Shown: in pieces, positions 3,303 through 38,676 of the stretch
Layout: each line of letters starts with the position of its first letter
How positions within the stretch are numbered: position 1 is the first letter of the stretch
IMG/VR virus record: IMGVR_UViG_3300002835_000322
Span: 1 to 47,473 of that record
Strand: one strand, 5' to 3'
Source of the DNA: a virus
Length of the DNA stretch: 47,473 bases
Position numbers and translations under genes: made by a program
The notes under the pieces: model-generated
What the model saw: only the letters and a program-made list of their open reading frames with translations
What the model was told of the DNA's origin: nothing
The model's database searches: none

Positions 3303-3359
3303 CAAGTCTATTGCTTATTTCCAACAACTCATGTAGTGTGAAATAGTAAGGAGAACACG

Positions 3360-4076
3360 ATGAGAAATATGACAGCAATTGCTTGGGATGATTTAGTTGA
3401 TGCTTCGGAATCCAAAGATACCGAAGTCCGTTATAATTTCACGACAGACCCTTTGCTAATCAGTTGCACTCTTTATCGTTTGATAAAGGAGTCACGAGAA
3501 ACCGATTCCATATCGTATCTTAATTGGTCTTTAAACGAACACGCTGACAAGATTGTAAATAAAATTACCGATCAGGATCGTGTGTTTGCCGAAACCCTTA
3601 AATCATACTATATGTCTAAGTTGCTTATGGCTAAATTGCGCGGCGATGACTTCACTAAGTTTAAAACTGATTTGATGCAGTATCTACACGATTCTCCTAA
3701 TACTCTCACTTCACGTTTTATTGGTATGGTATATAAACTGCCTTACTTCTACGAATATGATATGAAGCTTGTTGAAATTTTTGGTGGAGAACGCAAAGAC
3801 CTTGGTCCTGCTAGACACCGTGATAGGGAAGACATTACGCTAACCTTTATTGCTAAAGCCGATAATGGACAGAAGCGTTCTCGTAACTATGAATACTGGT
3901 TTAAAGATGACACTGACACTCGCATTCTACTAGAAGTAGAAAAGCACAATCCCGTAAGAAATCTTTGGGAACAGAGCATTCAGGCTGGCAAGTTAAACGT
4001 TAATACTCTTTTTGAAAAGAAGCGTAGAGATAACCTAGAATTTTACGTTGCTAGGGCGTGGACTATCAATATCTAA
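3360..4076 (+). CDS. Conserved hypothetical phage protein
   Basis: This 238-aa protein is soluble, mixed alpha/beta and rich in charged residues, with no signal peptide or membrane segment. It has a strong AAGGAG before the ATG; a second Met at codon 4 is less well placed. A 57-nt spacer separates it from uvsY, and no promoter was seen there, so it probably reads through from uvsX-uvsY. I do not recognise a domain. Its position suggests a DNA-metabolism role, but that is only context. Confidence 0.75.
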   Translation: MRNMTAIAWDDLVDASESKDTEVRYNFTTDPLLISCTLYRLIKESRETDSISYLNWSLNEHADKIVNKITDQDRVFAETLKSYYMSKLLMAKLRGDDFTKFKTDLMQYLHDSPNTLTSRFIGMVYKLPYFYEYDMKLVEIFGGERKDLGPARHRDREDITLTFIAKADNGQKRSRNYEYWFKDDTDTRILLEVEKHNPVRNLWEQSIQAGKLNVNTLFEKKRRDNLEFYVARAWTINI

Positions 4077-4088
4077 AAGGAGACTATA

Positions 4089-4277
4089 ATGAAGGGTGAT
4101 AAACTAAAACTGCATATTGCAGAACTAAAGCACAAGCATCATCATTTAGAATTGGAAATAAACAAGCTTGTTTATCTACACGGTGACGAAATGAAAATCC
4201 AAGAGTTAAAAAAGCGTAAACTCAAATTAAAGGATGAAATAGAATTACACGAGTCTCAACTTAAAGATATCGGTTGA
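4089..4277 (+). CDS. DUF465/YdcH-like small helical protein
   Basis: The 62-aa product is almost entirely helical with alternating Lys and Glu/Leu. The arrangement H-H-L-E-L-E-I, a short turn, then L-K-K-R-K-L-K-L-K-D-E-I matches the two-helix hairpin of the DUF465 (YdcH) family as I know it. Function in bacteria is unclear. An AAGGAG precedes the ATG. The stop overlaps the -35 element of the next promoter. Confidence 0.65.
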   Translation: MKGDKLKLHIAELKHKHHHLELEINKLVYLHGDEMKIQELKKRKLKLKDEIELHESQLKDIG

Positions 4278-4302
4278 CATACATCCTATAATTTGCTATT
4301 GT
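4274..4302 (+). promoter_or_regulatory. sigma70-type promoter for the HD hydrolase
   Basis: TTGACA (4274-4279), 17 nt, TATTGT (4297-4302). A leader of about 20 nt with AAGGAG leads to the ATG at 4331. Confidence 0.75.
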
Positions 4303-4330
4303 TAATTATAGATAGAAAAAGGAGCAAAAT

Positions 4331-4777
4331 ATGAGAAAAGGTGAATTACTCGGCAAAGTCCTAGTTCTCGCTACTAATGCTCATGCAGGTCAATTTGACA
4401 GAGGCGGCAACCCTTACATTCTTCACCCAATCAAGGTGATGCATTATCTCAAGACTGATGATGAAGAATTGCAGTGCATCGCCCTATTGCACGATGTTAT
4501 TGAAGATACCAAAACTACTTGGCAAGACCTTCAAGATATCGGTTGTACTGCTCGTGTTATAGCAGGTGTACGAGTCCTTACAAAGATGCCCGGACAGACC
4601 TACGATGAATACAAGAAAGAGGTCTTCGCTAATTTTGATGCAATGCGAGTGAAGTCTTGTGACCTTCGTCATAACACTGATATCCGTCGTCTCAAGGGTG
4701 TCACGCAGAAAGACATTGACCGTATGGCAAAGTACAATCAATTCTATCTTGAAATTCAGTCACGACTGAACGGATAA
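4331..4777 (+). CDS. SpoT/Mesh1-like HD hydrolase (putative (p)ppGpp hydrolase)
   Basis: The 148-aa protein is a stand-alone HD-domain hydrolase of the SpoT/Mesh1 type, which removes the 3'-pyrophosphate of ppGpp in known members. Visible motifs are H18-A-G-Q-F-D-R-G-G followed by Y-I-L-H-P, the metal-binding H-D-V-I-E-D-T near residues 54-60, and K-S-C-D-L-R-H-N near 109-116. There is no synthetase domain. It has its own sigma70-type promoter and a good RBS, so it is likely made early. Lowering the host alarmone during infection is a reasonable role. Some phage members of this fold act on other nucleotides, so substrate is uncertain. Confidence 0.8.
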   Translation: MRKGELLGKVLVLATNAHAGQFDRGGNPYILHPIKVMHYLKTDDEELQCIALLHDVIEDTKTTWQDLQDIGCTARVIAGVRVLTKMPGQTYDEYKKEVFANFDAMRVKSCDLRHNTDIRRLKGVTQKDIDRMAKYNQFYLEIQSRLNG

Positions 4778-4782
4778 AAATC

Positions 4783-4816
4783 GTACCCGAGGTCATTTTT
4801 CGGTTGACTTCGGGTA
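4783..4816. repeat. Inverted repeat spanning a promoter
   Basis: GTACCCGA at 4783-4790 pairs with TCGGGTAC at 4809-4816. The right arm lies across the end of the -35 and the spacer of the next promoter. It could be a weak terminator for the HD gene or an operator. Confidence 0.5.
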
Positions 4817-4832
4817 CCCATTTTGCTATAGT
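4804..4832 (+). promoter_or_regulatory. sigma70-type promoter for the AAA+ ATPase
   Basis: TTGACT (4804-4809), 17 nt, TATAGT (4827-4832), then a leader with AGAGGAA before the ATG at 4863. Confidence 0.75.
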
Positions 4833-4862
4833 GAATTATAGAAACAGTACAGAGGAATCAAT

Positions 4863-5873
4863 ATGTCTCGCATTCTTATCAAGCAAGGTGAATATCGCAA
4901 CAACCCTGTTATCAACAGCCAGTTTACTCTCGTAAAGGGTTTCCAGACTACAAAGAAAGGTTCGTTTGTGACTGTCAAGAATGATGGTGTGTTTCCCGTA
5001 AACATCGATGAAGTTCGCATCAAGGTATCGGACCTTAATGATGTTGAATTTCTTGATGGTGATGCTGCACCGGTCACGGCTACGGTAGCTGAAACTGACC
5101 AAGAAGCAATGGACCGCATCGCTACTCGTTTTGAAATCCTCGATGAAATGTCTGCTGCGTGTATCAAAGGAGATATTCGTGCGATGATCGTTTCGGGTCC
5201 TCCGGGCGTTGGTAAGTCGTTCGGTGTTGAACAGCAGCTTGAGAAAGCATCGTTGTTTGACAAGATTGCTAACAAGCGTCAAAAGTATGAAGTTGTCAAG
5301 GGTGCAATGACTGCACTCGGTCTGTATGCCCAGCTGTATCGCTACAGCGACAAGGGCAACATCCTCGTGTTTGATGACTGTGATAGCGTGTTCGGTGACG
5401 AACTTTCGCTGAATATTCTTAAGGCTGCACTAGACAGCGGCAAGCGTCGGCGCATTTGCTGGAACTCGGACTCGCGCCTTCTGCGTGAAGAAGGTATTCC
5501 GAATGCGTTTGAATTCAAGGGTTCTGCTATCTTTATCACGAACCTCAAGTTTGAAAACGTTCGCAGCAAGAAGCTTCAAGATCACCTTGAAGCACTTGAA
5601 AGCCGCTGTCACTTTGTTGACTTGACCATCGATACCGAGCGTGACAAGATGCTTCGTATTCGTCAGGTCAATCGTGACGCACAGGGTGGCCTCTTCGGCG
5701 ACTACAGTTTTATGAATAACGAAGCCGAACTTATCCTAGACTTCATGGAAGCCAATCGCACTAAGCTTCGTGAATTGTCAATCCGTACCGCTCTCAAGAT
5801 TGCTGACCTTGTAAAAATGTCTCCGAATAAGTGGCAGGCTCTTGCTATGAACACGGTCATGCGTCGGGCATAA
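4863..5873 (+). CDS. AAA+ ATPase
   Basis: This 336-aa protein has a Walker A G-P-P-G-V-G-K-S at residues 112-119 and a Walker B I-L-V-F-D-D-C-D at about 167-174. An I-F-I-T-N sensor-1 strand follows at about 225 and a helical lid after it. The N-terminal 90 residues are a separate small domain with beta character. It acts in the cytosol as an ATP-driven remodeller; the partner is unknown. The codon choice is noticeably richer in G and C than in its neighbours. It has its own promoter. A short ORF and a terminator follow, so it forms a small transcription unit. Confidence 0.85.
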   Translation: MSRILIKQGEYRNNPVINSQFTLVKGFQTTKKGSFVTVKNDGVFPVNIDEVRIKVSDLNDVEFLDGDAAPVTATVAETDQEAMDRIATRFEILDEMSAACIKGDIRAMIVSGPPGVGKSFGVEQQLEKASLFDKIANKRQKYEVVKGAMTALGLYAQLYRYSDKGNILVFDDCDSVFGDELSLNILKAALDSGKRRRICWNSDSRLLREEGIPNAFEFKGSAIFITNLKFENVRSKKLQDHLEALESRCHFVDLTIDTERDKMLRIRQVNRDAQGGLFGDYSFMNNEAELILDFMEANRTKLRELSIRTALKIADLVKMSPNKWQALAMNTVMRRA

Positions 5874-5874
5874 C

Positions 5875-6000
5875 ATGAAGTTAACTCGCATCCCGCTAGA
5901 TACTAACAACCGCATGCTTCGCATTGGGTTTGGGAAGCATGACGGTCGTTGGTTTGCTAGAATTGATGTATGGTTTTTTGGATTAAGGATTACCCCATAA
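5875..6000 (+). CDS. 41-aa basic phage peptide
   Basis: ATG at 5875, one base after the ATPase stop, opens a 41-codon frame. It encodes L-R-I-G-F-G-K-H-D-G-R-W-F-A-R-I-D-V-W near the middle. The pattern, two short strands with a G-R-W-F turn, resembles small uncharacterised phage proteins I have seen. It is coupled to the ATPase, and the transcript ends at a terminator just downstream. Function is unknown. Confidence 0.6.
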   Translation: MKLTRIPLDTNNRMLRIGFGKHDGRWFARIDVWFFGLRITP

Positions 6001-6025
6001 TAATAAATGCCTTTCAACAAACTTT

Positions 6026-6051
6026 CGGGGACTTCGGTCCCCGTTTCTTTT
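6026..6051 (+). terminator. Rho-independent terminator
   Basis: CGGGGAC (6026-6032), a TTCG tetraloop, GTCCCCG (6037-6043) and a T-rich run to 6051. This is a textbook terminator ending the ATPase unit. Confidence 0.92.
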
Positions 6052-6060
6052 CCAGAACGC

Positions 6061-6088
6061 TTGCAAAAATACATAACGGTGCTATAGT
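6061..6088 (+). promoter_or_regulatory. sigma70-type promoter, leaderless geometry
   Basis: TTGCAA (6061-6066), 16 nt, TATAGT (6083-6088). Transcription should begin about 7 nt after the hexamer, at the ATG at 6095. Confidence 0.7.
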
Positions 6089-6094
6089 ATGAAT

Positions 6095-7093
6095 ATGACT
6101 AATAAGGAACAATTGCTATATTTCTTCCTGCAAGGTAAGATCAGCTTGAGTCAATATGACTACAAGTTTATGGCTAACCTACAAACTATAATCCAAAACA
6201 ATTCGCGGGTAACGAGCAACCAAGCTGACCTGTTCGATAAGCTTATCAGTAAGTATAAGAAGCAGCTTGCTAAGCAAGGACTTGTTAAGGAAGAACTTAA
6301 AGAACTTCCGTGGAAGACAATGATAGTCGAAAGCACCTCAGAGTACACAGGTGCGGTAGTATCATTGCGGGATAATGAACTTAACATTCGTGTTCCGTTC
6401 AACAAGTCATTTATTAGCGAGTTTCGTAATGTTCCAAACAATGCATTTGACTGGGACAAAGAAACCAAATCGTATTCGGCTCGGTTCGGCACTACCGCAT
6501 TAAAAGTTGCATATACTGCCCTTCCGAAGTTCTTCTCTACGGTGCGATATGATGACCAACTGCAAACTATCATCGATGAGTTAAAGCAGTACGAGGAGCT
6601 AATTTGGAATCCTACACTAACTAAATACAACGGTGAATTGATTGTTGCGGCAGCTAATCCTATTATAGCAGAATTAATTCAGGATACCGAGTTAACCTTG
6701 GAACCACGAACGATATTTAATTTGACTTGCATGGGGATAACTATTGATCCGAAGCTTTACGAAGCTTCTGAAAAATTAAGATTTGCAGCCAGTTCGGTGT
6801 ACGAAGTCGAGTTGACGGATGTGGAAAACACTATAGGATGGATGAAGAATGTCGGTTGCGAAAATGTTGTGATTGGTAGAGGATTGCGAAGCACTATCAG
6901 CCAAGAACATCTATCTAGCATGATTGAAAAGTATGGAATGAGGTCGTTAGGACCACTATCATATGGTACGTTGCCTGATGGTGTTTCTATGCTCATGCAG
7001 CATACAAGTAATGTCAACAGTCGAACTCCTTTCACTGGACAAATAACTAAAACAGTCGTGCTAAAAGATAGCCGACCAATCGAGGTCAAATGA
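6095..7093 (+). CDS. UvsW-associated protein, possible HARP-like domain
   Basis: I chose ATG 6095 because the promoter's -10 ends at 6088, so the ATG at 6089 would lie upstream of the predicted transcript start. The 332-aa product has a helical N-terminal region (1-70). Around residues 105-150 a segment runs R-V-P-F-N, then a W-D-K-E-T-K strand and a Leu-rich helix. It resembles the HARP/SMARCAL1-type accessory domain that accompanies annealing helicases. The gene overlaps uvsW by ATGA. A role in fork remodelling with UvsW is inferred. The domain match is by eye only. Confidence 0.75.
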   Translation: MTNKEQLLYFFLQGKISLSQYDYKFMANLQTIIQNNSRVTSNQADLFDKLISKYKKQLAKQGLVKEELKELPWKTMIVESTSEYTGAVVSLRDNELNIRVPFNKSFISEFRNVPNNAFDWDKETKSYSARFGTTALKVAYTALPKFFSTVRYDDQLQTIIDELKQYEELIWNPTLTKYNGELIVAAANPIIAELIQDTELTLEPRTIFNLTCMGITIDPKLYEASEKLRFAASSVYEVELTDVENTIGWMKNVGCENVVIGRGLRSTISQEHLSSMIEKYGMRSLGPLSYGTLPDGVSMLMQHTSNVNSRTPFTGQITKTVVLKDSRPIEVK

Positions 7094-8547
7094 ACGAAGC
7101 AAAAATCATAATTAAGGACGAAGTTAATGTAAAGATTGAGGGTCTAGAACTTTCAGATCGCCGTGCATTGATGAAGAAGTTTGAATACGAAAAGCCGGGG
7201 GCAAGATATTTGCCCGCAGTTCGTTTGGGTCGTTGGAACGGCAAGATTAGCTATTTTAGTCTTGCTGGTAGCACTTATCTAAACCTCCTAGAAGATGTTA
7301 TCACGTATCTGTATGATAAGAATTATGACATTGAATTAGTTGACCATAGGCAAAGTCACGGCAAGTTAGAGTTTGACCTAATCCGTGAAGATAGTTTTTC
7401 TGACACTGTATGGCCAAAAGGGCATGAACGTGAAGGTCAACCTATCGTGCTACGAGACTATCAGGTTGAGATTGTCAATAACTTTTTAGCTAATCCTCAG
7501 TGCTTACAGGAAGTCGCCACGGGAGCGGGCAAGACATTGATGACTGCTGCTCTATCTAAGTCCGTAGAGCATCTAGGACGCTCTCTAGTGATTGTCCCCA
7601 ACAAAAGTCTTGTTACACAAACAGAAGCAGACTACATCAACTTAGGATTGGATGTTGGCGTCTACTTCGGTGACCGTAAGGATTACGGCAAGACGCACAC
7701 AATCTGCACTTGGCAAAGCTTGAATAATTTATTCAAGAACACAGCCGAAGCTGGCGAAGAAAAACTAGATGAATTCTTTTTTGAAGATATTGCTTGTGTA
7801 ATCGTTGATGAGGTACATATGGCAAAGGCTGATGTTCTCAAGACAATGCTTACCGGAGTGTTCAGTAACATTCCTATTCGCTGGGGACTGACAGGAACCA
7901 TTCCTAAAGACAAGATGGATCAGGTATCATTGCTTGTATCCCTCGGTCCCGTCATTGGTAAGCTGTCAGCAAAAGAATTACAGGACAAGGGTGTACTCGC
8001 ACAATGTCATGTTAACATTGTTCAGCTTAAGGATAAGGTTGAGTTCACTAACTACCAGTCAGAATTGAAACATCTACTAGAAGATTCAAATCGCCTTGAT
8101 ACAATTGCCGCATTAATTGACAAAGTGAATCTGACTGGTAATACTTTGGTCCTTGTTGACCGAGTGAATGCAGGAAAAGAAATCGTAAGCAGATTAGGTT
8201 CCAATGCTGTCTTTGTAAACGGCGGCACTGGATTAACAGAAAGAAAGGCAGAATATGATGAGGTTGCCACGAGCGACGATAAAATTATTGTCGCAACGTA
8301 CGGCGTTGCGGCTGTCGGTATTAATATTCCTCGGATCTTTAATTTGGTTCTTATTGAGCCTGGCAAATCGTTTGTACGAGTTATTCAGTCAATAGGCAGA
8401 GGCATTCGTAAAGCAGAAGACAAGGACCATGTACAGATTTGGGATATCACATCCTCATGTAAGTTTGCGAAGCGTCACTTGACACAACGTAAGCAGTTCT
8501 ACAAAGAAGCCAACTATCCTTTCAGTATAGAGAAATTGGACTATTAA
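7090..8547 (+). CDS. uvsW: UvsW, superfamily 2 helicase
   Basis: This 485-aa protein is the T4-type RNA-DNA and branched-DNA helicase that unwinds R-loops and drives fork regression, shifting replication from origins to recombination. Motif I A-T-G-A-G-K-T is at about 143-149, motif II D-E-V-H at 240-243, and motif III L-T-G-T near 273. Motif VI Q-S-I-G-R-G-I-R-K lies near residue 435. The first 110 residues form the usual N-terminal DNA-binding domain. Length is close to T4 UvsW (about 500 aa). It is coupled to the preceding gene by an ATGA overlap. Confidence 0.93.
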   Translation: MNEAKIIIKDEVNVKIEGLELSDRRALMKKFEYEKPGARYLPAVRLGRWNGKISYFSLAGSTYLNLLEDVITYLYDKNYDIELVDHRQSHGKLEFDLIREDSFSDTVWPKGHEREGQPIVLRDYQVEIVNNFLANPQCLQEVATGAGKTLMTAALSKSVEHLGRSLVIVPNKSLVTQTEADYINLGLDVGVYFGDRKDYGKTHTICTWQSLNNLFKNTAEAGEEKLDEFFFEDIACVIVDEVHMAKADVLKTMLTGVFSNIPIRWGLTGTIPKDKMDQVSLLVSLGPVIGKLSAKELQDKGVLAQCHVNIVQLKDKVEFTNYQSELKHLLEDSNRLDTIAALIDKVNLTGNTLVLVDRVNAGKEIVSRLGSNAVFVNGGTGLTERKAEYDEVATSDDKIIVATYGVAAVGINIPRIFNLVLIEPGKSFVRVIQSIGRGIRKAEDKDHVQIWDITSSCKFAKRHLTQRKQFYKEANYPFSIEKLDY

Positions 8548-8551
8548 TATC

Positions 8552-8580
8552 TTGACATATACAGTAAAGGTTGATATAAT
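8552..8580 (+). promoter_or_regulatory. sigma70-type promoter, leaderless geometry
   Basis: TTGACA (8552-8557), 17 nt, TATAAT (8575-8580). Six nucleotides then the ATG at 8587, with no room for a Shine-Dalgarno sequence. Confidence 0.85.
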
Positions 8581-8586
8581 AACATC

Positions 8587-9087
8587 ATGAGAATACTTAC
8601 CCTTGAAAATACTTCGTATAATCTAGAGACATTGCCTGATGAAATAGATGATCTGCGATTTTCTATTTTAGATAACAGCGTCCCTGCTAATGTAGATTAT
8701 CATTTTATACCCCTTATCTTTTTAGAATCGTTTAATAGTCCTGCATTGGTATTGAAGATTGCAGATAAAGTGATTAAGATGCCGATGGATTGGCAAGTGC
8801 TAATTGGTGAACAAGAGCATGGAGATTTAGAAGCATTACCTCTTTCGAGTCTTAATGACAGAGGATTCAATGCCTTTCAATTTAATTCACTGACATCATT
8901 TGTCCCGACATTCTTGCCTATTGAGATTCTTGATATCTATCCAGAAGTTACATGGTATGCACCCAGATTGAAAAATGGTCAATTTTTAAGCGTCCCTATT
9001 GATGAAGGAGAAAAGCCCAGATGCGTGTATTTCATTAAAGAAGTCAGTAGAAACTGTGAAATTGTAGATTATTCTTTAGCTTACTAA
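8587..9087 (+). CDS. Conserved hypothetical phage protein
   Basis: The 166-aa protein is predicted soluble and mostly beta. A central region reads K-M-P-M-D-W-Q-V-L-I-G-E followed by L-P-L-S-S-L, which is like uncharacterised proteins of other T4-like phages in my memory. No catalytic motif is evident. It is transcribed from a near-consensus promoter whose start site coincides with the ATG, so it is probably a leaderless early message. It leads the epimerase/clamp-loader operon. Confidence 0.75.
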   Translation: MRILTLENTSYNLETLPDEIDDLRFSILDNSVPANVDYHFIPLIFLESFNSPALVLKIADKVIKMPMDWQVLIGEQEHGDLEALPLSSLNDRGFNAFQFNSLTSFVPTFLPIEILDIYPEVTWYAPRLKNGQFLSVPIDEGEKPRCVYFIKEVSRNCEIVDYSLAY

Positions 9088-18709: not shown

Positions 18710-19687
18710 ATGATTGATATCCTCACTATAATTCCGGGCAGAAAGAAGACCACAGCAAAAGGCTGGGTGAGCTTTAATGCTCCTTGCTGTCATCATTTTG
18801 GACATAAGCCTGATCGCAGAAGTCGCGGTGGCATAAAGTTCGATGGTGATGTCAATTGGAGCTATCACTGCTTTAACTGTCACTTTAAATGCGGGTTCAC
18901 TTTAGGAAAAACACTTAGTCAGAATCTAAGAAAACTATTGTCTTGGTTTGGTATAGATGAGCAACAAATAAACAAGTGGAGCTTTGAAAGTCTACAGCAC
19001 AAAGACCTTATTGAATTATATGTCAAAAAAAGAAAAAGTCTCAAGATTAATTTTGCTGAGACTCAGCTTCCGGAAGACGCTACCATCATTGATGAGACTG
19101 ACCCCAAGCATCTAAAGTTTGTTGAGTATATCAACAGTCGAGGCTTTTCGGTTACTGATTATCCCTTCATGATTACTCCCAATGAAGAAGGTAGAAACAG
19201 TAATAGAATAATCATACCCTATACTTTTGAAAATAAGATTGTCGGACACATAAGCAGGTATCTTGACAATCGTATTCCAAAATACATCAAAGAGCAGCAA
19301 ACGGGCTTCATCTTTGGCTATGATTTTCAAAAGCCGGAGTATGAAGTGTGTATTGTTGTAGAGGGTGTATTGGATGCGCTCAGCATTAACGGTTGCGCAC
19401 TAACACATGATACTATTAGTGACGAACAAGCGGAGCTATTGAGAAGGCTAAACAGAAGAATTATCGTAGTGCCAGACTTAGATAAGTCCGGTATAGCAAT
19501 CATTGACAGAGCAGTAGAATTAGGATTTGAAGTTGCAATTCCAAATTGGTCACCTGAAATAAAGGATACCAATGACGCTGTATTAAAATACGGCAAAGTA
19601 GCTACCCTACTAAGTATTCTACAACAAGCTACAAGCAGTAAGATTAAAATTGAAATGCAGAGGAAGAAAATTGCTCAAAGAATATAA
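18710..19687 (+). CDS. gp61: DNA primase gp61
   Basis: The 325-aa protein is the T4-type primase that makes RNA primers for Okazaki fragments with helicase gp41. The N-terminal zinc-binding part has C-C-H-H near 25-28 and C-F-N-C-H-F-K-C near 54-61. The Toprim core has V-V-E-G-V-L-D-A at about 215-222 and V-P-D-L-D-K-S-G near 256-263, then K-D-T-N-D-A near 289. Length is close to T4 gp61 (342 aa). It immediately precedes the helicase, as expected for the pair. Confidence 0.93.
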   Translation: MIDILTIIPGRKKTTAKGWVSFNAPCCHHFGHKPDRRSRGGIKFDGDVNWSYHCFNCHFKCGFTLGKTLSQNLRKLLSWFGIDEQQINKWSFESLQHKDLIELYVKKRKSLKINFAETQLPEDATIIDETDPKHLKFVEYINSRGFSVTDYPFMITPNEEGRNSNRIIIPYTFENKIVGHISRYLDNRIPKYIKEQQTGFIFGYDFQKPEYEVCIVVEGVLDALSINGCALTHDTISDEQAELLRRLNRRIIVVPDLDKSGIAIIDRAVELGFEVAIPNWSPEIKDTNDAVLKYGKVATLLSILQQATSSKIKIEMQRKKIAQRI

Positions 19688-21068
19688 CACTGATATACAA
19701 CGTCTATTCCTTCAGATGATGGTCACGAATTCCGAGTTGTATACTCGTGTCATGAACATCATGAATCCAGAAAACTTTGATCGTAGTCTAAGAAACGTTG
19801 CAGAATTTATTGTAGAGCATACTGCCAAATATAGCATTATGCCTGACATAACGCAGATTAAAGCAACCACTGGTGAAGCAATTGACCATATCGAAGACTT
19901 GTCTGATGGACATTACGAATGGTTCTTGGAAGAATTTGAGTCATTCACTAAGCGACAAGAACTTGAACGAGCAATTCTTAAAGCAGCAGATATGCTTGAG
20001 AAGGGTGAATTTGACCCGGTCGAACAACTAATCAAGGACGCTGTTCAAATCAGTCTACAACGTGATATGGGAACAGATTACTTTGCTGACCCTAAGGATC
20101 GATTGAACAAGTATTTCAACGCAGGTGGTCAGGTGTCTACTGGCTGGCCGCAGCTTGACAGAGTTATGTATGGTGGAATGAGTCGCGGCGAGTTGAACAT
20201 CTTTGCAGGTGGTTCTGGTTCTGGTAAGTCGCTTGTTATGATGAACATCGCTCTTAACTGGTTGAGTCAAGGACTTAGTGGAGTCTACATCACTCTCGAA
20301 CTTTCAGAGGAATTGACATCGCTTCGTACTGATGCTATGTTGACTAATATGAGTACTAGAGACATTCGAAAGAATTTGGACGATACTGAATTGCGAGTCA
20401 AGATGGCTGGTAAGAAGTTTGGTAAGTATCGTGTTAAAGCATTACCCGCACAGAGTAATGTGAACGCTATTCGTTCATACATCAAAGAAGTGCAGATTCA
20501 GACTGGTATCAAGGTTGATTTCGTAATGATTGACTATCTTGATTTGGTCATGCCGGTAAGTGTCAAAGTTAATCCTAACGACCAGTTCATCAAGGACAAG
20601 TATGTATCAGAAGAACTTCGCAATTTGGCGAAGGAACTTGGTGTTCTTCTCATCACGGCATCGCAGTTGAATCGTAGTGCAGTTGAAGAAATTGAATTTG
20701 ATCACAGTCACATTGCAGGCGGTATTTCTAAGATTAACACTGCTGACTATGTGTTCGGTATCTTTACATCACGTTCTATGAAAGAACGTGGTAAATATCA
20801 GATTCAGTGTATGAAGTCTCGTAGTTCTACTGGGGTTGGTCAAAAGATTGACTTAGAGTACAATATTGATACTATGAGAATCACTGATGAGGATCCGGAA
20901 GAAGGTAGAACTCATCAACACACCCCTACACAACTAATGAACCAACTTAAAACTACTAGCTCAGTAAGCGATGTTGTTAACAATCTTCCAACTACTGAGG
21001 CAAAAATATCTGCTAATGTGGAGGGTGCAAAGCTAAAATCATTGTTGAATTCTCTCAAGAAAAACTAA
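19671..21068 (+). CDS. gp41: Replicative DNA helicase gp41 (DnaB-like)
   Basis: The enzyme unwinds DNA 5'-3' at the fork and works with primase gp61. I start at TTG 19671 because AGGAAG lies 5 nt before it; TTG 19650, seven codons earlier, is possible. The protein is then 465 aa (T4 gp41 475 aa). The N-terminal helical domain is at 1-130. The RecA-like core has G-G-S-G-S-G-K-S at about 180-187, a Walker B V-M-I-D-Y-L-D near 285, and T-A-S-Q-L-N-R near 326. It overlaps primase by 17 nt. Confidence 0.93.
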   Translation: MLKEYNTDIQRLFLQMMVTNSELYTRVMNIMNPENFDRSLRNVAEFIVEHTAKYSIMPDITQIKATTGEAIDHIEDLSDGHYEWFLEEFESFTKRQELERAILKAADMLEKGEFDPVEQLIKDAVQISLQRDMGTDYFADPKDRLNKYFNAGGQVSTGWPQLDRVMYGGMSRGELNIFAGGSGSGKSLVMMNIALNWLSQGLSGVYITLELSEELTSLRTDAMLTNMSTRDIRKNLDDTELRVKMAGKKFGKYRVKALPAQSNVNAIRSYIKEVQIQTGIKVDFVMIDYLDLVMPVSVKVNPNDQFIKDKYVSEELRNLAKELGVLLITASQLNRSAVEEIEFDHSHIAGGISKINTADYVFGIFTSRSMKERGKYQIQCMKSRSSTGVGQKIDLEYNIDTMRITDEDPEEGRTHQHTPTQLMNQLKTTSSVSDVVNNLPTTEAKISANVEGAKLKSLLNSLKKN

Positions 21069-21075
21069 AGAATGA

Positions 21076-21083
21076 ATAAATAC
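21076..21083 (+). promoter_or_regulatory. Late promoter
   Basis: ATAAATAC, a good T4-type late box. It would start transcription near 21088, ahead of the ATG at 21106, and marks the change from replication to late genes. Confidence 0.75.
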
Positions 21084-21105: not shown

Positions 21106-21351
21106 ATGCAAAAGAAAACAAAAAGCCTTCTTGAGGAATTACAATCTTTTGGTGACACTAGGGATATGAATCACATCATTGAGTCCCGTGCCTCCAATAT
21201 TATTACCAGTGCCATCAATCTTATTGAATTGATGCAAAAACAATATTCTCCTGACAAGGCTGAACTACTCGAAAAGAAGCTTTTGAGTGCTATCAAGGGT
21301 AAAGATCAAGAAAGATTCGCCAAATCGTTAAGGAAGAAAAATGAAGATTAA
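21106..21351 (+). CDS. Small conserved hypothetical protein
   Basis: The 81-aa product is mostly helical. Its C-terminal L-L-E-K-K-L-L-S-A-I-K-G-K-D is like small late proteins of T4-like phages I have seen. A late promoter lies just upstream. It overlaps the next gene by 11 nt. No function is known; a minor virion component is possible. Confidence 0.7.
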   Translation: MQKKTKSLLEELQSFGDTRDMNHIIESRASNIITSAINLIELMQKQYSPDKAELLEKKLLSAIKGKDQERFAKSLRKKNED

Positions 21352-22030
21352 TGAATTCAAACAATCTAAAAACATTGCTGAAGGTGCATTACTTGACATT
21401 TTGCTAGGGCCTAAGGCCGCTTCATACTTCGCTAAGGACGATGATAGACACCAAGAAGCACTTAAGGTCTTTTTGAAAGATTTCATCGGTGATGCTACTG
21501 TATCATTGAGCAACGGGATCCAATCAGGATTAATAGATGCAGAAAAATCTGCTACTAAACCTGACGCATCCGCGGAAGCCGGAGCTAGTGCTGGGGTAAT
21601 AGAATCTAGATATCAAAAGCTAAACGCTATCTTTGAAAGTATAGTGGAAGCTGATGGTGCTGATAGCATCACTGAATACATGACTACATGGTTTGATATG
21701 TATATGAAGGGAGTCGATTGGAGAGCTAAACAGAATGTTGTTATGCCAATTATCCAAGAAATTGAAAAAACATATGCTACAGATCAAGGCCGCGCCGCAA
21801 TCGAAAAATTAGGACGAGTGGCATTTTCTTTATCGGGTCCAGCAAAACAGCCCCCGGCTGGTGCAAGAGACGCAAAAGACGCATCGCCAGAACCGAAGGC
21901 ACCGCCGGCTCCGAAACCAGCTCCGAAACCAGCTACAAAAAGTGCAGATGAAGTAGCTAGAGATTTACTAGCATTGAGTGCTACGGATCGAGCAGCAGCA
22001 ATTGCTAAAGCAGAGGCTGCCGGTAGATGA
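21341..22030 (+). CDS. Hypothetical protein with Pro/Ala linker
   Basis: The 229-aa protein has a helical N-terminal region (1-65), then an Ala-rich patch and a second helical domain (about 85-165). A linker built from Pro, Ala, Lys and Glu follows (about 168-200), ending in a short Ala-rich helical tail. Such layouts occur in virion or packaged proteins. It is in a late-promoter operon and overlaps the nucleotidyltransferase by ATGA. I do not recognise a family. Confidence 0.7.
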   Translation: MKINEFKQSKNIAEGALLDILLGPKAASYFAKDDDRHQEALKVFLKDFIGDATVSLSNGIQSGLIDAEKSATKPDASAEAGASAGVIESRYQKLNAIFESIVEADGADSITEYMTTWFDMYMKGVDWRAKQNVVMPIIQEIEKTYATDQGRAAIEKLGRVAFSLSGPAKQPPAGARDAKDASPEPKAPPAPKPAPKPATKSADEVARDLLALSATDRAAAIAKAEAAGR

Positions 22031-22893
22031 CGACCCTACTAGAAGGCGGCGCAATGGACGGTGTAGGTGCAATCCACACTGATGAAATTGGCCCTACCCT
22101 AGACAGTCTAGAAAAGATTTTAGGCATTGACCTAAAGAACAACACCTTAGGCAGCGTAGGTAAGAAAGAGTTTTCAGGAGACATTGATATCGCTCTTGAC
22201 ATTGCGCCGGAAGATATCCCTGCATTTGTAGAAAAACTTAAGAGCATTCCTGAGGTATTGGACTTAGCTAAAAGTTCTGTAATCATGACTAAGGTTAAGA
22301 TTGCAGACTATGACCCAAACAAGCAAGTACAAGGGAAACCAAGAACAGGCTATGTTCAAGTAGATTTTATGCCCGGCGATCCGGGCTGGCTCAAGACATT
22401 CTATCACGCTCCCCACGAAAAAGATAGTAAGTACAAGGGTGTTTTTAGAAACATTCTTATGTCTAGTATTGCGGCACATTTAGATCGTAGAGATTCTGAA
22501 CAGAAAATTAGCGATGGTAGGCCAGTACAGTCAGAAAGATATATGTGGAGCCCAACTGACGGATTGATTAAGGTATTAAGAACTCCTGAGCCTAATAAGA
22601 AAGGCGATGGATATACTAAGAAGAATAGCAACAAAATTATTGACGGTCCATATAAGAATCCAGATGAGATTGCAAAAGTTCTACAGCTAGATTCAGCCGA
22701 TGACTTGTACTCTTACGAAACACTAAGAAAAGCAATGGACAAAAACTATTCGCCTAATCTAGTTGCTGCAATGCTAAAAGACTTTGCAGAAAATTCAGTG
22801 ATACGAGACGTAGGTGTACCTACTGATATTAAACTCAGTGAAAGCGTGGGCACTAGTGATTGGTTCAGAACAATTCTGGATATTGTAAAATGA
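22027..22893 (+). CDS. Pol-beta-like nucleotidyltransferase
   Basis: The 288-aa protein carries the nucleotidyltransferase signature G-S-V-G-K at 42-46 followed by S-G-D-I-D-I at 50-55, which gives the two metal-binding Asp (D52, D54). A third Asp lies in V-Q-V-D-F at about D113. These enzymes transfer nucleotides to RNA ends, proteins or small molecules; the target is unknown. The N-terminal E-G-G-A-M-D-G is also typical of this phage family. It is coupled by ATGA to the ligase-like gene downstream, so the two products likely work together. Confidence 0.8.
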   Translation: MTTLLEGGAMDGVGAIHTDEIGPTLDSLEKILGIDLKNNTLGSVGKKEFSGDIDIALDIAPEDIPAFVEKLKSIPEVLDLAKSSVIMTKVKIADYDPNKQVQGKPRTGYVQVDFMPGDPGWLKTFYHAPHEKDSKYKGVFRNILMSSIAAHLDRRDSEQKISDGRPVQSERYMWSPTDGLIKVLRTPEPNKKGDGYTKKNSNKIIDGPYKNPDEIAKVLQLDSADDLYSYETLRKAMDKNYSPNLVAAMLKDFAENSVIRDVGVPTDIKLSESVGTSDWFRTILDIVK

Positions 22894-23984
22894 GATTTTT
22901 TGAAATAATAAAAGAATCAATCTATTTGACTGAGGCTGCAAATCCTCGCACTCCGCATCCTGAAGACTCAGTTTTTGCTGGTTTAGGTGCTGCTAAAGAC
23001 GCAGTTGATTCAATGTATTATGTGATTGAAAACCCAGAAACACTCACTATCAAGTGGGACGGATTCCCCGCTCTTATCTTTGGATACGATGATAAGGGAC
23101 AGTTCACTGTATCAGACAAATATATGTTTGATAAGGGTCCTGAATATTTAGGAACAAGTCCTAAGTTTTGGCAAGAGTATGATGCTAGTAGAGGTAAAAG
23201 TCGCCCTGAATTATATCAGAAGTTGAACAACATTTGGAATGGGTTGAAAGCAGCAGTAGGTAGTAGCAAGGGCTTCTTTTGGGGAGACTTGATGTGGGGA
23301 GACCAACTAGCTAATCAAAACGGCAACCTAGTATTCAAGCCAAACACCGTAACATACGCTGTCCCTGCAAACAGTGATTTAGGTAAGACTATTGCAGGAA
23401 CTAAAGGTGGCGTAGCAGTTCATCAATACTTTAGTGAAGTCGGAGGCAAGCCTTCACCCTGGAATAGTCAGGGTCTTGAAGGAAATAAAGAAGTCGCTAT
23501 TCTTACTCCTAACATGGGTATTGATTTTAGCTTGACTGCTCCTAACAATGAAGTATCTAAAGTCAATCAGGCACTCTCACAGAATAGTCAATTAGATGAA
23601 TTCTTAGGTGGCATGGACGGAGTTGCTAGAAATGCGTTGCAGAAATATCTAGGGCATATCGCAACTAATCAAACAAATCTTCCAATAGATCAATGGCTAC
23701 AAAACAATGTCAGTGGCAAGCAATATCGGTTCTTAGTTGGTGACGGTGATGGTTATCTCGTTGAGAATAAAAAGCAGCTTGACGCACTAATGAACTTGTA
23801 TTTTGCTATTGCTAATCTTAAAAATAGTTTGGCTGACCAACTAGAGCAACAGGTTCAAGGGGTAGAACAGTCAATTAACGATAGACCCGGCGGCGAAGGT
23901 TTTGTGTTCAATACACCCAATGGACTAGTCAAATTAGTCAATCGTGGTGGCTTTAGTGCTGCTCATTTTGGTAAGAAAAAGTAA
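22890..23984 (+). CDS. Ligase-like covalent nucleotidyltransferase (KxDG)
   Basis: I start at ATG 22890, overlapping the previous stop by ATGA; a GTG-initiated extension to 22860 is unlikely. The 364-aa protein has K55-W-D-G58, the lysine motif of DNA/RNA ligases and capping enzymes. A motif III-like G-F-F-W-G-D-L lies near 130, and E-G-F-V-F with L-V-K-L-V-N-R near the C-terminus fits motifs IV and V. Known members form an enzyme-AMP and seal nucleic-acid ends. It is shorter at motif I than classic ligases, with Pro after F in place of the usual Arg. I recall uncharacterised relatives in T4-like phages. Role untested as far as I know. Confidence 0.7.
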   Translation: MRFFEIIKESIYLTEAANPRTPHPEDSVFAGLGAAKDAVDSMYYVIENPETLTIKWDGFPALIFGYDDKGQFTVSDKYMFDKGPEYLGTSPKFWQEYDASRGKSRPELYQKLNNIWNGLKAAVGSSKGFFWGDLMWGDQLANQNGNLVFKPNTVTYAVPANSDLGKTIAGTKGGVAVHQYFSEVGGKPSPWNSQGLEGNKEVAILTPNMGIDFSLTAPNNEVSKVNQALSQNSQLDEFLGGMDGVARNALQKYLGHIATNQTNLPIDQWLQNNVSGKQYRFLVGDGDGYLVENKKQLDALMNLYFAIANLKNSLADQLEQQVQGVEQSINDRPGGEGFVFNTPNGLVKLVNRGGFSAAHFGKKK

Positions 23985-24012
23985 CCCAAAACCAAGTTTT
24001 TTTCTGTCAGGC

Positions 24013-24020
24013 ATAAATAC
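24013..24020 (+). promoter_or_regulatory. Late promoter
   Basis: ATAAATAC with the transcript expected to start near 24025. Confidence 0.85.
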
Positions 24021-24025
24021 TTATA

Positions 24026-24039
24026 TGAGCTTCGGCTCA
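24026..24039 (+). promoter_or_regulatory. 5'-end stem-loop of a late message
   Basis: TGAGC, a TTCG tetraloop and GCTCA form a stable hairpin one base after the predicted transcript start. A hairpin at the extreme 5' end usually protects mRNA from decay. TAAGG for ribosome binding follows. Confidence 0.65.
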
Positions 24040-25483: not shown

Positions 25484-26194
25484 ATGAGACTTACTGATTT
25501 AGATAATAAAAACACCCAGGTGAAAGCATTGAAAGAAAACTTTGCTATGGACTTTGATGTGTCAACTTTAGACAAGCCAAAGACTGCTGCTATGCTCAGC
25601 AAGGTAAAGAAACTCATTGGTGAATCAAAAAGATCACCTGAATTTCACCAAGCTCAGAAAAACCCTGCTTATTTAAAGCTAATGTTTATGGAGCAAGCGT
25701 TACGTACACATATGAAGGTCGCAAAGAGTCCTCGTATTGTTCTAGAAAATGAAGAAGTTGAAAAGTCACAGGTAATTCTTGCTGCACAAGACATGATTGA
25801 TACTGTGCAGAAAATGTACGAAGATATCAATGATATGTTGGTAAAAGAACTTCCTGCTCTTGTTGATTCAATTCAGAGCGAAATCGGCGTTAATGAAAGC
25901 GACCAGTTTAATCAAGCTGCTAATCAAGCACTAACTACATTAAATGCATCATTACAAGAAGCACAGACTGGACTTAAGAGCGCATTAGGCGGATTGACTG
26001 GCCAAGGCGGAGGCGACGCATTTGCTTTAGGCGCACCTGAAATGGATGCAGATCTTGGTGCAGAAATGGGTGCAGATGCAGCAGTAGATTTGGACACTGA
26101 TATGGAAGAGCCTAGTCTAGATCTTCCTCCTATTCCAGATATGGATGACGAAGAAGAAGGTCCACTAGCATCGGCAGGCCGCCCCAAAAGATAA
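25484..26194 (+). CDS. Hypothetical late protein with acidic tail
   Basis: The 236-aa protein is helical through residues 1-165, including long stretches likely to form coiled coil. It then has a Gly-rich region and an acidic Asp/Glu-rich tail with Pro. This layout resembles scaffold or core components of phage proheads, but no protein of that kind is proven here. Homologues in T4-like phages are known to me as hypothetical. Late promoter upstream; TAATG overlap with the next gene. Confidence 0.7.
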   Translation: MRLTDLDNKNTQVKALKENFAMDFDVSTLDKPKTAAMLSKVKKLIGESKRSPEFHQAQKNPAYLKLMFMEQALRTHMKVAKSPRIVLENEEVEKSQVILAAQDMIDTVQKMYEDINDMLVKELPALVDSIQSEIGVNESDQFNQAANQALTTLNASLQEAQTGLKSALGGLTGQGGGDAFALGAPEMDADLGAEMGADAAVDLDTDMEEPSLDLPPIPDMDDEEEGPLASAGRPKR

Positions 26195-36415: not shown

Positions 36416-36793
36416 ATGCATATTCGTCCTATTTGTATTAATCATGGTTGCAATCGTCCGGTCGCACATTCAGGTACACGTTATCGCCCGGTGTGTGGGC
36501 TTTGTCATCAAGCAGGATATAACAAAATTCCATTTAAATGGGGTGTTACGCCATTCCGTACAGGGCGCTGTAGCAACACCGACAGTCATTTAGGCTTTAC
36601 CTGTGCAATTGATTATGATAAGGCACCCTGGACACTTGGCAAAACCCACGTTGATCATATCGACGGTAATCATTTGAACAACGTATTATCTAATGTAGTT
36701 GAACTATGTCCGCTTTGTCATCAGCATAAGGGTATGCTCGCCGGCGACTTCAAGAATCAAGGTGTGTATCACTATAACAAAAATAACGGTTGA
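36416..36793 (+). CDS. HNH endonuclease
   Basis: I start at ATG 36416, with GAAAGG 9 nt before it and downstream of the promoter; a longer frame from TTG 36320 overlaps the promoter. The 125-aa protein has zinc-binding Cys (C7, C12, C27, C30), then H-V-D-H-I-D-G-N-H-L-N-N and a C-P-L-C-H-Q-H-K knuckle. This is the HNH core with metal and catalytic His. It cleaves DNA in known members; as a free-standing phage gene it may be a homing-type nuclease. It sits directly before the TonB receptor in the accessory island. Confidence 0.88.
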   Translation: MHIRPICINHGCNRPVAHSGTRYRPVCGLCHQAGYNKIPFKWGVTPFRTGRCSNTDSHLGFTCAIDYDKAPWTLGKTHVDHIDGNHLNNVLSNVVELCPLCHQHKGMLAGDFKNQGVYHYNKNNG

Positions 36794-36818
36794 CAAGGTT
36801 CTATAAACATGTTATAAC
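36790..36818 (+). promoter_or_regulatory. sigma70-type promoter for TonB receptor
   Basis: TTGACA (36790-36795, overlapping the HNH stop), 17 nt, TATAAC (36813-36818). This near-consensus promoter gives the receptor its own transcript. Confidence 0.85.
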
Positions 36819-36846
36819 TATACTTCAAGTAAGAAAGGAAATTATT

Positions 36847-38676
36847 TTGAAAACATTTAAACTTTTTGCCACCACCGCAGCATTAATGCTTTCGTCTACA
36901 ACTTATGCACAGACAGAAATCGTAGTGACTGCATTGCGCACTCCTACAAATATAGCAAATACCGGTACTCAAGTTACTATAGTTGATAGTAATGAAATTA
37001 CAAATAGGCAGACTGCAACTATTGCAGAACTACTTGCCACTCTCCCAGGTATTACGATTGACCGTTCGGGCAATACCGGAAGCGTTTCCAGTGTTAGAAT
37101 TCGCGGAGCAGAAAGCGCACAGACTCTAGTATTGCTAGATGGTGTGCGAATGAACGATATTGCGAATCCAGCAGCTAGCTTTGACTTTGGCAGTTTGGTC
37201 ACTGGCAATATTGACCGTATTGAGGTATTACGCGGCCCCAGTTCTGTTCTTTGGGGAAGCCAAGCAGTTGGCGGAGTGGTAAGTTTGACTACTCGTGCTC
37301 CTAGCGATAATCTTACTAGTCGTGTTCGCGGAGAGTATGGCTACTCTGATACTGCTCGTGCATATGCTGACCTTAGCGATACTGTCGGCGCTGTCTCTTA
37401 TCTGATAGGTGGCGGACATGAACGCAGCGATGGTATTTCTGCTGCTGCTAATGGTAGTGAGCGTGATGGCTTCAAGGCTAGTGCAGCAAATGCTAAAGTA
37501 GGCATTCGTCTATCTGATAATGTCAATATTGATTTGCGTAGCAATTATCTAGAAACTCGTTTCAGTTTTGACGGCTTCCCTGCTCCTCGCTATATTCTTG
37601 CTGACACCGGTGAGTATTCAAATACTGATAGCCTAAGCGGTTACGCTGGTATTAATGCTTCGTTTTTTGATGGCAAGTTCAAGAATCGTGCATCACATAG
37701 CCGCGTAAAGCTAAATCGCTACAACTATGAAACCAATAACACTGAAAACTTTCGCAGTGCAGGAATCAATGAGCGATTTGAATATCAGGGTACAGTTGAT
37801 TTAGGTTCTAACAAAGCTATCTTTGGTTACGAACACGAGGCAAATGACTTTGAAACTAAGTACAACTATTCTGGCTTTCGTGGTGGTAATCAAGCTACAG
37901 CAAATATTGATAGCATCTATGGCCAACTTGCAACTCAGCCACTATCTAATCTATCAGTTAATGCTGGTGCCCGCCGTGATTGGCATAGCGGTTACGGAAA
38001 CGAAACTACCTTTGGTGCCGATGCTGTATATGCGTTAGGTGATACTACTCTACGAGCAAGCTATGGTGAAGGCTTCAAGGCCCCTACTCTCTATCAATTG
38101 TACGGAGACTATGGAAACGATGACCTTCTTGCAGAAACAGCAAAGGGTTTTGATGTAGGAGTCACCCATAAGTTCAATGAACAGTTTGATGTTACTGCTA
38201 ACTATTTTAAGCGCAACACTAACAATCAAATTGATTTTGATCTTGGGACCTACACTTACAGTAACCTAGGTACTACATCAGCACAGGGCGCAGAAGTCAT
38301 TGCTACGATTGTTCCATTGACTAATCTAGCGGTGTCTGCGAACTACACCTACACTGAATCTACTGACAAGGATACTGGACTTGACCTTCCTCGTCGTCCA
38401 CGACACTCTACCTCAATTCGTGTCGATTATACATGGACGAACGGACTTGCAACAGGTGCAACCATTCGTTACGTGGGTAAGGCTTGGGAGAATGCTGCTA
38501 ATACAAACAAAATTGATTCTTATGTATTAGTAGACGCAACTGTTCGTTATCCCTTGACTGCATCGCTTGAATTGACCGGGCGTGTTGAAAATGTCTTCAA
38601 TGAAAGTTATGAGACTGCAAAGGGATATGGTACATATCCTAGAGCAGGGTATATCGGCATTAGAGCAAAGTACTAA
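36847..38676 (+). CDS. TonB-dependent outer-membrane receptor (BtuB-like)
   Basis: I start at TTG 36847, after AGAAAGGA; the frame also extends upstream over the promoter. The 609-aa protein has a signal peptide (M-K-T-F-K-L-F then a hydrophobic core) with likely cleavage after A21. A TonB box T-E-I-V-V-T-A follows at 23-29. The plug (about 30-160) has V-R-I-R-G-A-E, L-L-D-G-V-R-M-N-D and E-V-L-R-G-P-S-S-V-L-W-G. A 22-strand type barrel follows, ending in the aromatic residue Tyr as outer-membrane proteins do. Family members import vitamin B12, siderophores or sugars with TonB energy. It appears intact. Confidence 0.93.
   Translation: MKTFKLFATTAALMLSSTTYAQTEIVVTALRTPTNIANTGTQVTIVDSNEITNRQTATIAELLATLPGITIDRSGNTGSVSSVRIRGAESAQTLVLLDGVRMNDIANPAASFDFGSLVTGNIDRIEVLRGPSSVLWGSQAVGGVVSLTTRAPSDNLTSRVRGEYGYSDTARAYADLSDTVGAVSYLIGGGHERSDGISAAANGSERDGFKASAANAKVGIRLSDNVNIDLRSNYLETRFSFDGFPAPRYILADTGEYSNTDSLSGYAGINASFFDGKFKNRASHSRVKLNRYNYETNNTENFRSAGINERFEYQGTVDLGSNKAIFGYEHEANDFETKYNYSGFRGGNQATANIDSIYGQLATQPLSNLSVNAGARRDWHSGYGNETTFGADAVYALGDTTLRASYGEGFKAPTLYQLYGDYGNDDLLAETAKGFDVGVTHKFNEQFDVTANYFKRNTNNQIDFDLGTYTYSNLGTTSAQGAEVIATIVPLTNLAVSANYTYTESTDKDTGLDLPRRPRHSTSIRVDYTWTNGLATGATIRYVGKAWENAANTNKIDSYVLVDATVRYPLTASLELTGRVENVFNESYETAKGYGTYPRAGYIGIRAKY

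Follow-up and report, generated by a model that had tools for sequence, protein, structure and literature searches.

The locus described here raises the question of what a pair of coupled genes, one for a nucleotidyltransferase-like protein and one for a ligase-like protein, may do for the virus that carries them. The pair lies in the 47,473-nucleotide virus record IMGVR_UViG_3300002835_000322 (positions 1 to 47,473; this whole stretch is called the window below), which by its gene content looks like a T4-like myovirus. An original prediction made from the sequence letters had described two reading frames joined by ATGA, and the junction was confirmed as an overlap with ATG at 22890 and TGA at 22891-22893. 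The two products are named P0001 and P0002.

22027 to 22893, plus strand: PolX-like nucleotidyltransferase P0001, 288 amino acids (aa), with presumed catalytic residues D52, D54 and D113
22890 to 23984, plus strand: ligase-like covalent nucleotidyltransferase P0002, 364 aa, of the DUF6267 family
Within P0002, plus strand: codons of K55 at 23052-23054, D133 at 23286-23288, E336 at 23895-23897 and K348 at 23931-23933

The longest open reading frame (ORF) of the P0002 gene begins at 22860 (TTG), and the homologues and the numbering of K55 favour the ATG at 22890.

Our favoured explanation, which as a whole we hold at about an even chance, is a late-made, packaged and injected enzyme pair that mends ends or gaps. 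P0001, a PolX-like nucleotide-adding enzyme, and the ligase-like P0002 would share one substrate. Both would be late products that enter the prohead by means of short capsid-targeting leaders at their N-termini, lose these leaders when a gp21-family prohead protease cuts at L/I-x-E, and are injected together with the DNA. In the new cell, ahead of phage gene expression, they may supply nucleotide(s) missing at broken ends or gaps and close these, the likeliest targets being the incoming genome or RNA that host defences have cleaved. That the pair repairs ends or gaps in nucleic acids is our best guess for its function, and the substrate is a guess; the DNA of the incoming genome is ranked above RNA, because the nucleotidyltransferase (NTase) resembles gap-filling polymerases and because of the late promoter core ahead of the genes. 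Our computations show the folds, the conserved active-site residues, the coupling of the genes (fusions among them), the leaders, the late promoter core and the presence of the protease in large relatives, while cleavage, packaging, injection, catalysis and substrate of P0001 and P0002 are what we infer.

Judged by its structure model, P0001 is a nucleotidyltransferase of the Pol beta superfamily. It gave no family match in Pfam (E 1), PHROGs (E 0.1) or NCBIfam (E 1). Its motif residues are G42-S43, D52-x-D54 and a third acid, D113; in 36 aligned homologues G42, G51, D52, I53, D54, Q111 and D113 are invariant and S43 is kept in at least 90% (the aligned homologues of both proteins were nearly all chosen at a model coverage of at least 85%, and the NTases of loci L042 and L036 were added by hand). 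The AlphaFold model built from this alignment (mean predicted local distance difference test score, pLDDT, 90.5) has the palm and thumb fold of family X DNA polymerases (Foldseek E 9.5e-6, probability 1.00), the best 50 of 126 rows with E <=0.001 being all Pol beta or lambda entries, and a second structure comparison gave Z 9.1-9.7 across the 50 rows shown. PolX came top of ten targets in profile-profile comparison, with the aspartates in register and an E of 0.042 that is not significant. Neither single sequences nor profiles gave a useful direct link of the two proteins to solved structures; FtsZ-like matches at E 0.06 and Pol lambda matches at E 2.2 in these searches were set aside. We do not file P0001 as a family X polymerase. 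A pattern-based scan of 84,980 species genomes for the P0001 family gave 67 candidates, of which a single one was confirmed; it lies on a 5.6-kb contig (L258) from a Planctomycetota metagenome-assembled genome, and by eye this contig looks like phage sequence.

P0002 matched DUF6267 (PF19782) over residues 23-364 with E 7.4e-34 (118.1 bits against a curated cut-off of 27) and phrog_455 with E 2.6e-24. P0002 is a DUF6267 member, and we do not file it as a standard ligase. Neither family carries a recorded function, which fits the earlier remark that such proteins are uncharacterised in other phages, and relatives are abundant, being encoded in at least 588 viral-contig stretches. In the covalent nucleotidyltransferase (ligase and capping enzyme) superfamily, motif I is KxDG, motif III has a glutamate, motif IV is EG and motif V is KxK. 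P0002 shows K55-W-D-G, a G-D133-L segment, E336-G337 and K348; all 88 aligned homologues keep K55, D57, G58, D133, E336, G337 and K348, and at least 90% keep W56. With the AlphaFold model from this alignment (mean pLDDT 93.2), all 46 rows with Z >=5 were RNA or DNA ligases, matched by their adenylation domain. The best was a Naegleria RNA ligase (Z 7.9, root-mean-square deviation 4.1 over 183 residues), the highest rows were RNA ligases, and the first non-ligase appeared at Z 4.6. Foldseek against BFVD found a 446-aa protein of phage PA5oct (E 9.0e-6) and a 324-aa protein of Atu_ph07 named 'RNA ligase' (E 8.4e-5). Profile-profile comparison decides nothing for P0002, because an unrelated exonuclease family (E 0.057) scored as well as RNA ligases (0.074). 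A mostly helical stretch (about residues 219-319) precedes motif IV, and only 14 residues follow V350.

The enzyme folds of both proteins are well supported by these models, and we think them very probably right. They support the enzyme classes of the original prediction; the outcome that would have refuted it, a model lacking the ligase adenylation domain, did not occur. The motifs it had pointed out, G-S plus D-x-D in the first gene and K-W-D-G plus motif IV/V-like segments in the second, lie on the conserved residues given above; the third acid, D113, was absent from it. Such conservation bears on the idea that both proteins keep enzyme folds as structural or core-filling proteins with no catalysis. 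Their place near structural genes and the altered motifs III and V of P0002 would suit this idea, but the invariant aspartates of P0001 and the seven invariant motif residues of P0002 make it most improbable.

The coupling of the two genes extends well beyond the window. It was counted on non-redundant domains flanked by 2.6 kb of sequence in each direction (38 NTase and 49 ligase domains); in these counts, as in those of fusions, leaders and promoters below, the sequences are related and are not independent events. A ligase lies within 2.6 kb of 33 of the 38 NTase domains, in the same ORF in 8 of these 33, which bears out the coupling proposed from the window. The five others are at L071, L254, L248, L232 and L244, the last with a ligase elsewhere in its 222-kb record. 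Counted from the ligase side, an NTase is nearby for 35 of the 49 domains. Both domains occur together in 26 ORFs (23 distinct), in both orders. When both profiles were run over 11 records, the NTase was matched in 7 and the ligase in 10; in G002 a diverged NTase-like gene adjoins the ligase by eye (L050), though the profile gave no match. Relatives of DUF6267 were found in 75 phage records, of which 66 are Synechococcus, cyanophage or Prochlorococcus phages, and relatives of the NTase in 14. Three distant jumbo phages with the NTase (Phosso, PA5oct and Atu_ph07) were looked at more closely, and each has, next to its NTase or at most 1.3 kb away, a diverged gene that its motifs mark as ligase-like. 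PF09414 stayed below cut-off for two of these three genes (E 0.085 and 0.002), the P0002 profile contacted that of PA5oct at motifs IV-V (E 9.9e-4), and the PA5oct and Atu_ph07 proteins matched in BFVD have the lengths of these NTase neighbours. Phosso has, in addition, a second and weaker NTase match (E 1.3e-17) elsewhere in its genome (PV764938.1, 118554-119129).

Since a polymerase-fold NTase is frequently paired or fused with a ligase-fold protein, one polynucleotide substrate is the best explanation. This argues against the view that the two proteins are packaged and injected but add nucleotides to host proteins or tRNA in the manner of T4 Alt, with no repair; the best folds of P0001, DNA polymerases with palm plus thumb, argue likewise. 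In favour of such effectors, neighbours in relatives bear similar leaders and one has a GNAT domain (L042), polyvalent injected proteins include Pol-beta NTases among protein-modifying domains (PMC5512222), and the changes in motifs III and V of P0002 could mean an altered reaction. On balance we consider this view unlikely and prefer the mending of ends or gaps.

The evidence for packaging starts from the N-termini. In T4, the prohead protease gp21 cleaves after L/I-X-E and the first ten residues of the internal protein IPIII are enough for capsid targeting (PMC9026906). T4 gp24, a known substrate of gp21, is trimmed of its first ten residues (PMC9958956). P0001 and P0002 both begin with a comparable stretch (the slash marks the predicted cut).

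22027 to 22044, plus strand: leader MTTLLE of P0001, predicted prohead-protease cut before GG (L-L-E/GG)
22890 to 22934, plus strand: leader MRFFEIIKE/SIYLTE/A of P0002, predicted prohead-protease cuts after E9 and/or E15

In the models these N-termini are disordered (pLDDT <50 at residues 1-7 of P0001 and 1-17 of P0002). The T4 gp24 start, MAKINELLRE/S, closely resembles MRFFEIIKE/S of P0002 and relatives such as MKISEVLNE/S, and T4 IPI starts with MKTFKEFTSTTTPVSTITE/A. A leader motif in any single protein was rejected as evidence, as many ORFs of the window carry one, and only conservation compared with shuffled sequences was used. In the NTase family, 126 of 205 matches fit the context pattern and give 43 distinct contexts, with E at P1 in all 43, L or I at P3 in 41 (F in two) and eleven residues at P2; the 79 matches outside the pattern include shorter leaders (MLTE/GG), truncated ORFs, ligase-first fusions and the leaderless L103, L105 and L106. 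In the ligase family, 112 distinct unfused segments ahead of the conserved domain were compared, and 107 hold L/I-x-E, whereas 200 shuffles gave 47.7 on average and 62 at most. This count leaves out ORFs truncated at the 5' end and loci L105-L108 and takes identical segments once; L213, one of the five misses, is a misregistered fusion. Within the first 30 residues the motif exceeded every shuffle for the NTase (78 of 93), the ligase (120 of 130) and four families encoded nearby, those of the 81-aa (95/97), 229-aa (27/30), 236-aa (68/78) and 111-aa (31/32) proteins. It did not for primase (2/50), exonuclease (7/47), the 147-aa (8/77) or the 129-aa family (1/48).

The motif is also found inside fused proteins. 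It stands directly ahead of the downstream domain in all 23 distinct NTase-ligase fusions, many of which are close relatives, so that only a few architectures count as independent cases. Under stricter pooling the motif is present in 14 of 15 distinct segments, compared with a shuffle mean of 5.8; the miss is L050, a ligase-ligase fusion. Long polyproteins with a C-terminal NTase show I-M-E/GG, L-N-E/GG, I-T-E/GG or L-M-E/GG at the junction, and the junction E lies at residues 336 to 969 in the six measured. The motif thus stays at the domain boundary whether at residue 6 or 969, the behaviour expected of a processing site. We consider it quite probable that the leader-bearing form is packaged.

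Several relatives show more elaborate arrangements. In L050, an NTase-like gene (5977-7059, phrog_19290) precedes one ORF with two tandem ligase-like domains (7059-9008, the first by eye). Single ORFs of about 980-990 aa in L156 (3918-6887), L167 (5959-8928) and L178 (590-3526) hold a ligase, a second NTase-like domain seen by eye and the first NTase, and I-D-E/GG and I-T-E/GG precede the two NTase parts. Between NTase and ligase, L030 has two related phrog_12810 genes (6482-8001; leaders MKIKELLE/A and MKMKELLE/A), and L042 (6008-8013) has a kinase-like gene seen by eye, with the leader L-S-E/A, and a fusion of a GNAT domain (E 4e-4) with an NTase-like part seen by eye. In Atu_ph07 a phrog_11975 gene, related to phrog_12810, lies 3' of the NTase and by eye heads a tandem array; a reading of the L030 genes and their Atu_ph07 relatives as ADP-ribosyltransferases was unsupported in Pfam, PHROGs and the PDB and was not used. 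Homologues of phrog_13937 (L106:6647-7666 and L107:9090-10016), a possible third partner, adjoin the pair in PA5oct (E 1.3e-5) and DUF6267 in S-PRM1 (E 2.1e-117). Directly before the NTase of L254 lies a 1094-aa ORF (2658-5939) with internal repeats; by eye its first part, after a leader-like stretch, is a HIGH-type nucleotidylyltransferase.

The time of expression was judged from the surroundings of the pair in the window.

21075 to 21082, plus strand: T4-type late promoter core AATAAATA (ATAAATA at 21076), 31 bases before the 81-aa gene
21106 to 21351, plus strand: 81-aa protein of phrog_11854 ('head and packaging, virion structural protein'; E 1.8e-15), with an L-x-E leader
21341 to 22030, plus strand: ORF for a 229-aa protein, function unassigned, with leader MKINEFKQSKNIAE/G; leader motif in 27 of the 30 distinct homologues
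24012 to 24019, plus strand: next plus-strand late promoter core CATAAATA (ATAAATA at 24013), taken as the start of the next transcription unit
25484 to 26194, plus strand: 236-aa virion structural protein of phrog_14154 (E 2.5e-12), with a leader like those of P0001 and P0002
26194 to 26529, plus strand: 111-aa protein with a leader like those of P0001 and P0002; leader motif in 31 of the 32 distinct homologues

NTase and ligase thus belong to a unit at 21106-23984 that follows a late promoter core, which fits the late operon of the original prediction. Enrichment of ATAAATA in the window was rejected (10 found, three of them on the minus strand, against 14.9 expected), and because the cores are not enriched the evidence rests on their placement: six of the seven on the plus strand lie 27 to 49 bases before an ORF start and the seventh 104. 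Among homologues (distinct regions covering the 90 bases ahead of an ORF start and the 40 bases that follow it) the core was found for the 81-aa gene in 58 of 115 (at least five of these just inside the ORF), the 129-aa gene in 51 of 57 and the 236-aa gene in 49 of 81. For the 147-aa family 18 of 83 regions contain it, placed between -21 and 12 bases relative to the ORF start, and for the NTase family 5 of 108 do. None was seen around the starts of the helicase (0/80), primase (0/56), exonuclease (0/49), 229-aa (0/32), 111-aa (0/34) and ligase (0/139) families. The head-gene neighbourhood is given by the 81-aa and 236-aa genes, which belong to virion structural families, and a gp21-family protease (PF03420) was matched in five of 12 records searched, which are all five of at least 144 kb.

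The leaders, this neighbourhood and the protease of large relatives suggest that the two proteins are late products that enter the head and serve when the next infection begins. The original prediction, in which the pair acts late in infection, perhaps in packaging, is not supported in this respect. A role of that kind would be action inside the prohead on phage DNA, for example trimming or closing of ends during packaging or head maturation, with the pair dispensable after injection. The late promoter core and the head genes would suit it, but T4 ejects many of its internal proteins into the host (PMC9026906), and ligation while a linear genome is being packaged would serve no evident purpose; we consider it very unlikely.

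A further possibility is that cleaved tRNA or other RNA is repaired inside the infected cell by unpackaged enzymes, in analogy to RlaP and its RNA ligase, a pairing described in jumbo phages (PMC7824862). The RNA ligases in the top structural rows of P0002 point in this direction, as do the Atu_ph07 'RNA ligase' of 324 aa, the length of the NTase's neighbour (itself below the PF09414 cut-off at E 0.002), and the missing leaders in the jumbo-phage and cyanophage relatives looked at. However, P0001 was tried as RlaP and rejected (no match to PF10127 at E 1, none in nine of nine related records, and a profile-profile E of 0.14), a late promoter core and head-gene surroundings are ill-suited to repair needed during the infection, and the leaders would be left unexplained. 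We regard RNA repair by unpackaged enzymes as rather unlikely.

Some results weigh against packaged and injected mending enzymes, or against the enzyme assignments on which they depend. No sequence-profile method ties P0001 or P0002 significantly to its structural relatives, the query TM-scores of the Foldseek matches shown for P0001 are only 0.34-0.40, the best Z of P0002 lies in a range rated middling by the comparison tool, and its Foldseek search against the PDB was weak (best E 0.65, an archaeal RNA ligase). The motif III position of P0002 holds the invariant D133 where E is expected, so the acid is kept and the residue differs, and motif V has V350 in place of its second lysine (in at least 90%). 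The coupling has gaps, as 14 of the 49 non-redundant ligase domains have no detectable NTase nearby and no NTase match was obtained in four of the 11 records searched by profile (G002, G011, G012 and S-PRM1). L/I-x-E is short and common in single proteins, many window ORFs have one, and 21 of 68 helicase homologues hold it in their first 30 residues, a count not above every shuffle. The NTases of Phosso, PA5oct, Atu_ph07 and L103 have no leader, and neither do the DUF6267 proteins of the cyanophages S-PRM1 and S-PM2, whose genes lie near replication genes. A gp21-family protease was not matched in the 47-kb window or in six other records below 100 kb. The PA5oct NTase, which has no leader, is annotated in the record notes as detected by electrospray ionisation tandem mass spectrometry (ESI-MS/MS); its ligase-like partner gp256 is not so labelled, and the label is no proof of packaging because 14 of the 22 PA5oct features shown have it, ribonucleotide reductase included.

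Other features of the window may be listed here. Its T4-like traits are a single-strand-binding protein family (phrog_1192, E 6e-59), a Toprim primase-like gene and a tail sheath; a UvsW N-terminal match was weak and below cut-off. The ORF at 19650-21068 is called a helicase because it follows the primase, an arrangement also seen in PA5oct and Phosso. Just after the promoter core at 24012 and before the 129-aa gene there is a GAGC-TTCG-GCTC hairpin (24027-24038). This phage record also encodes a TonB-dependent receptor with plug domain at 36790-38676 (PF00593 E 3.9e-43, PF07715 E 2.4e-26), which matches phrog_5687 (function unassigned).

In a broader form, the proposal is that a widespread set of aquatic T4-like phages may carry in their virions a repair kit of PolX-like polymerase and ligase, made as single proteins or polyproteins, sorted by leaders, cut by the protease and injected for gap-filling and sealing before phage genes are expressed; we would place this somewhat below an even chance. 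It offers a testable function for DUF6267/phrog_455, an abundant family with none recorded. If true, repair of DNA or RNA would join the roles of injected head proteins, and T4-like phages would deliver enzymes as protease-processed polyproteins. Moreover, the leader provides a simple sequence rule for finding further packaged enzymes in uncultured phages.

Finally, the pair may be compared with known systems. DUF6267/phrog_455, of which P0002 is a member, is found mostly in T4-like cyanophages, and no paper in the collection searched names DUF6267. The DUF6267 protein of S-PRM1 differs in that it has no leader and adjoins a cytidylyltransferase gene in a record with no match to the NTase, and that of S-PM2 is part of a 591-aa protein named cytidyltransferase-like in UniProt. 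RlaP and RNA ligase pairs resemble P0001 and P0002 in joining a Pol-beta-fold NTase to a ligase, there of the ATP-grasp type (PMC7824862); the present pair differs in lacking an RlaP match and in its apparently late, head-linked and leader-bearing nature. P0001 shares the palm and thumb fold, with aspartates in register, with the family X DNA polymerases Pol beta, lambda and mu, at a sequence match that is not significant and the low TM-scores given above. P0002 has the adenylation fold and the order of motifs I, IV and V of Rnl5-, Rnl2- and REL-type RNA ligases and ATP-dependent DNA ligases, and differs from them in the D of motif III, the missing second lysine of motif V, the helical stretch and the short tail after V350. 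To our knowledge, a polymerase-ligase pair is not among T4's own packaged proteins. Literature searches on packaged NTases, on family X polymerase or ligase in phage virions and on ejected polyproteins of T4-like phages, with subscription literature mostly outside them, gave among the papers listed none whose title and abstract describe such a system. The short leaders ending in L/I-x-E are shared with the internal head proteins of T4 (IPI-III and Alt) and with gp24. What is new here is that both proteins of the pair have disordered leaders that resemble T4 capsid-targeting sequences and end in the gp21 motif. A difference from the T4 internal proteins is that relatives of the pair are also polyproteins with sites between the domains.

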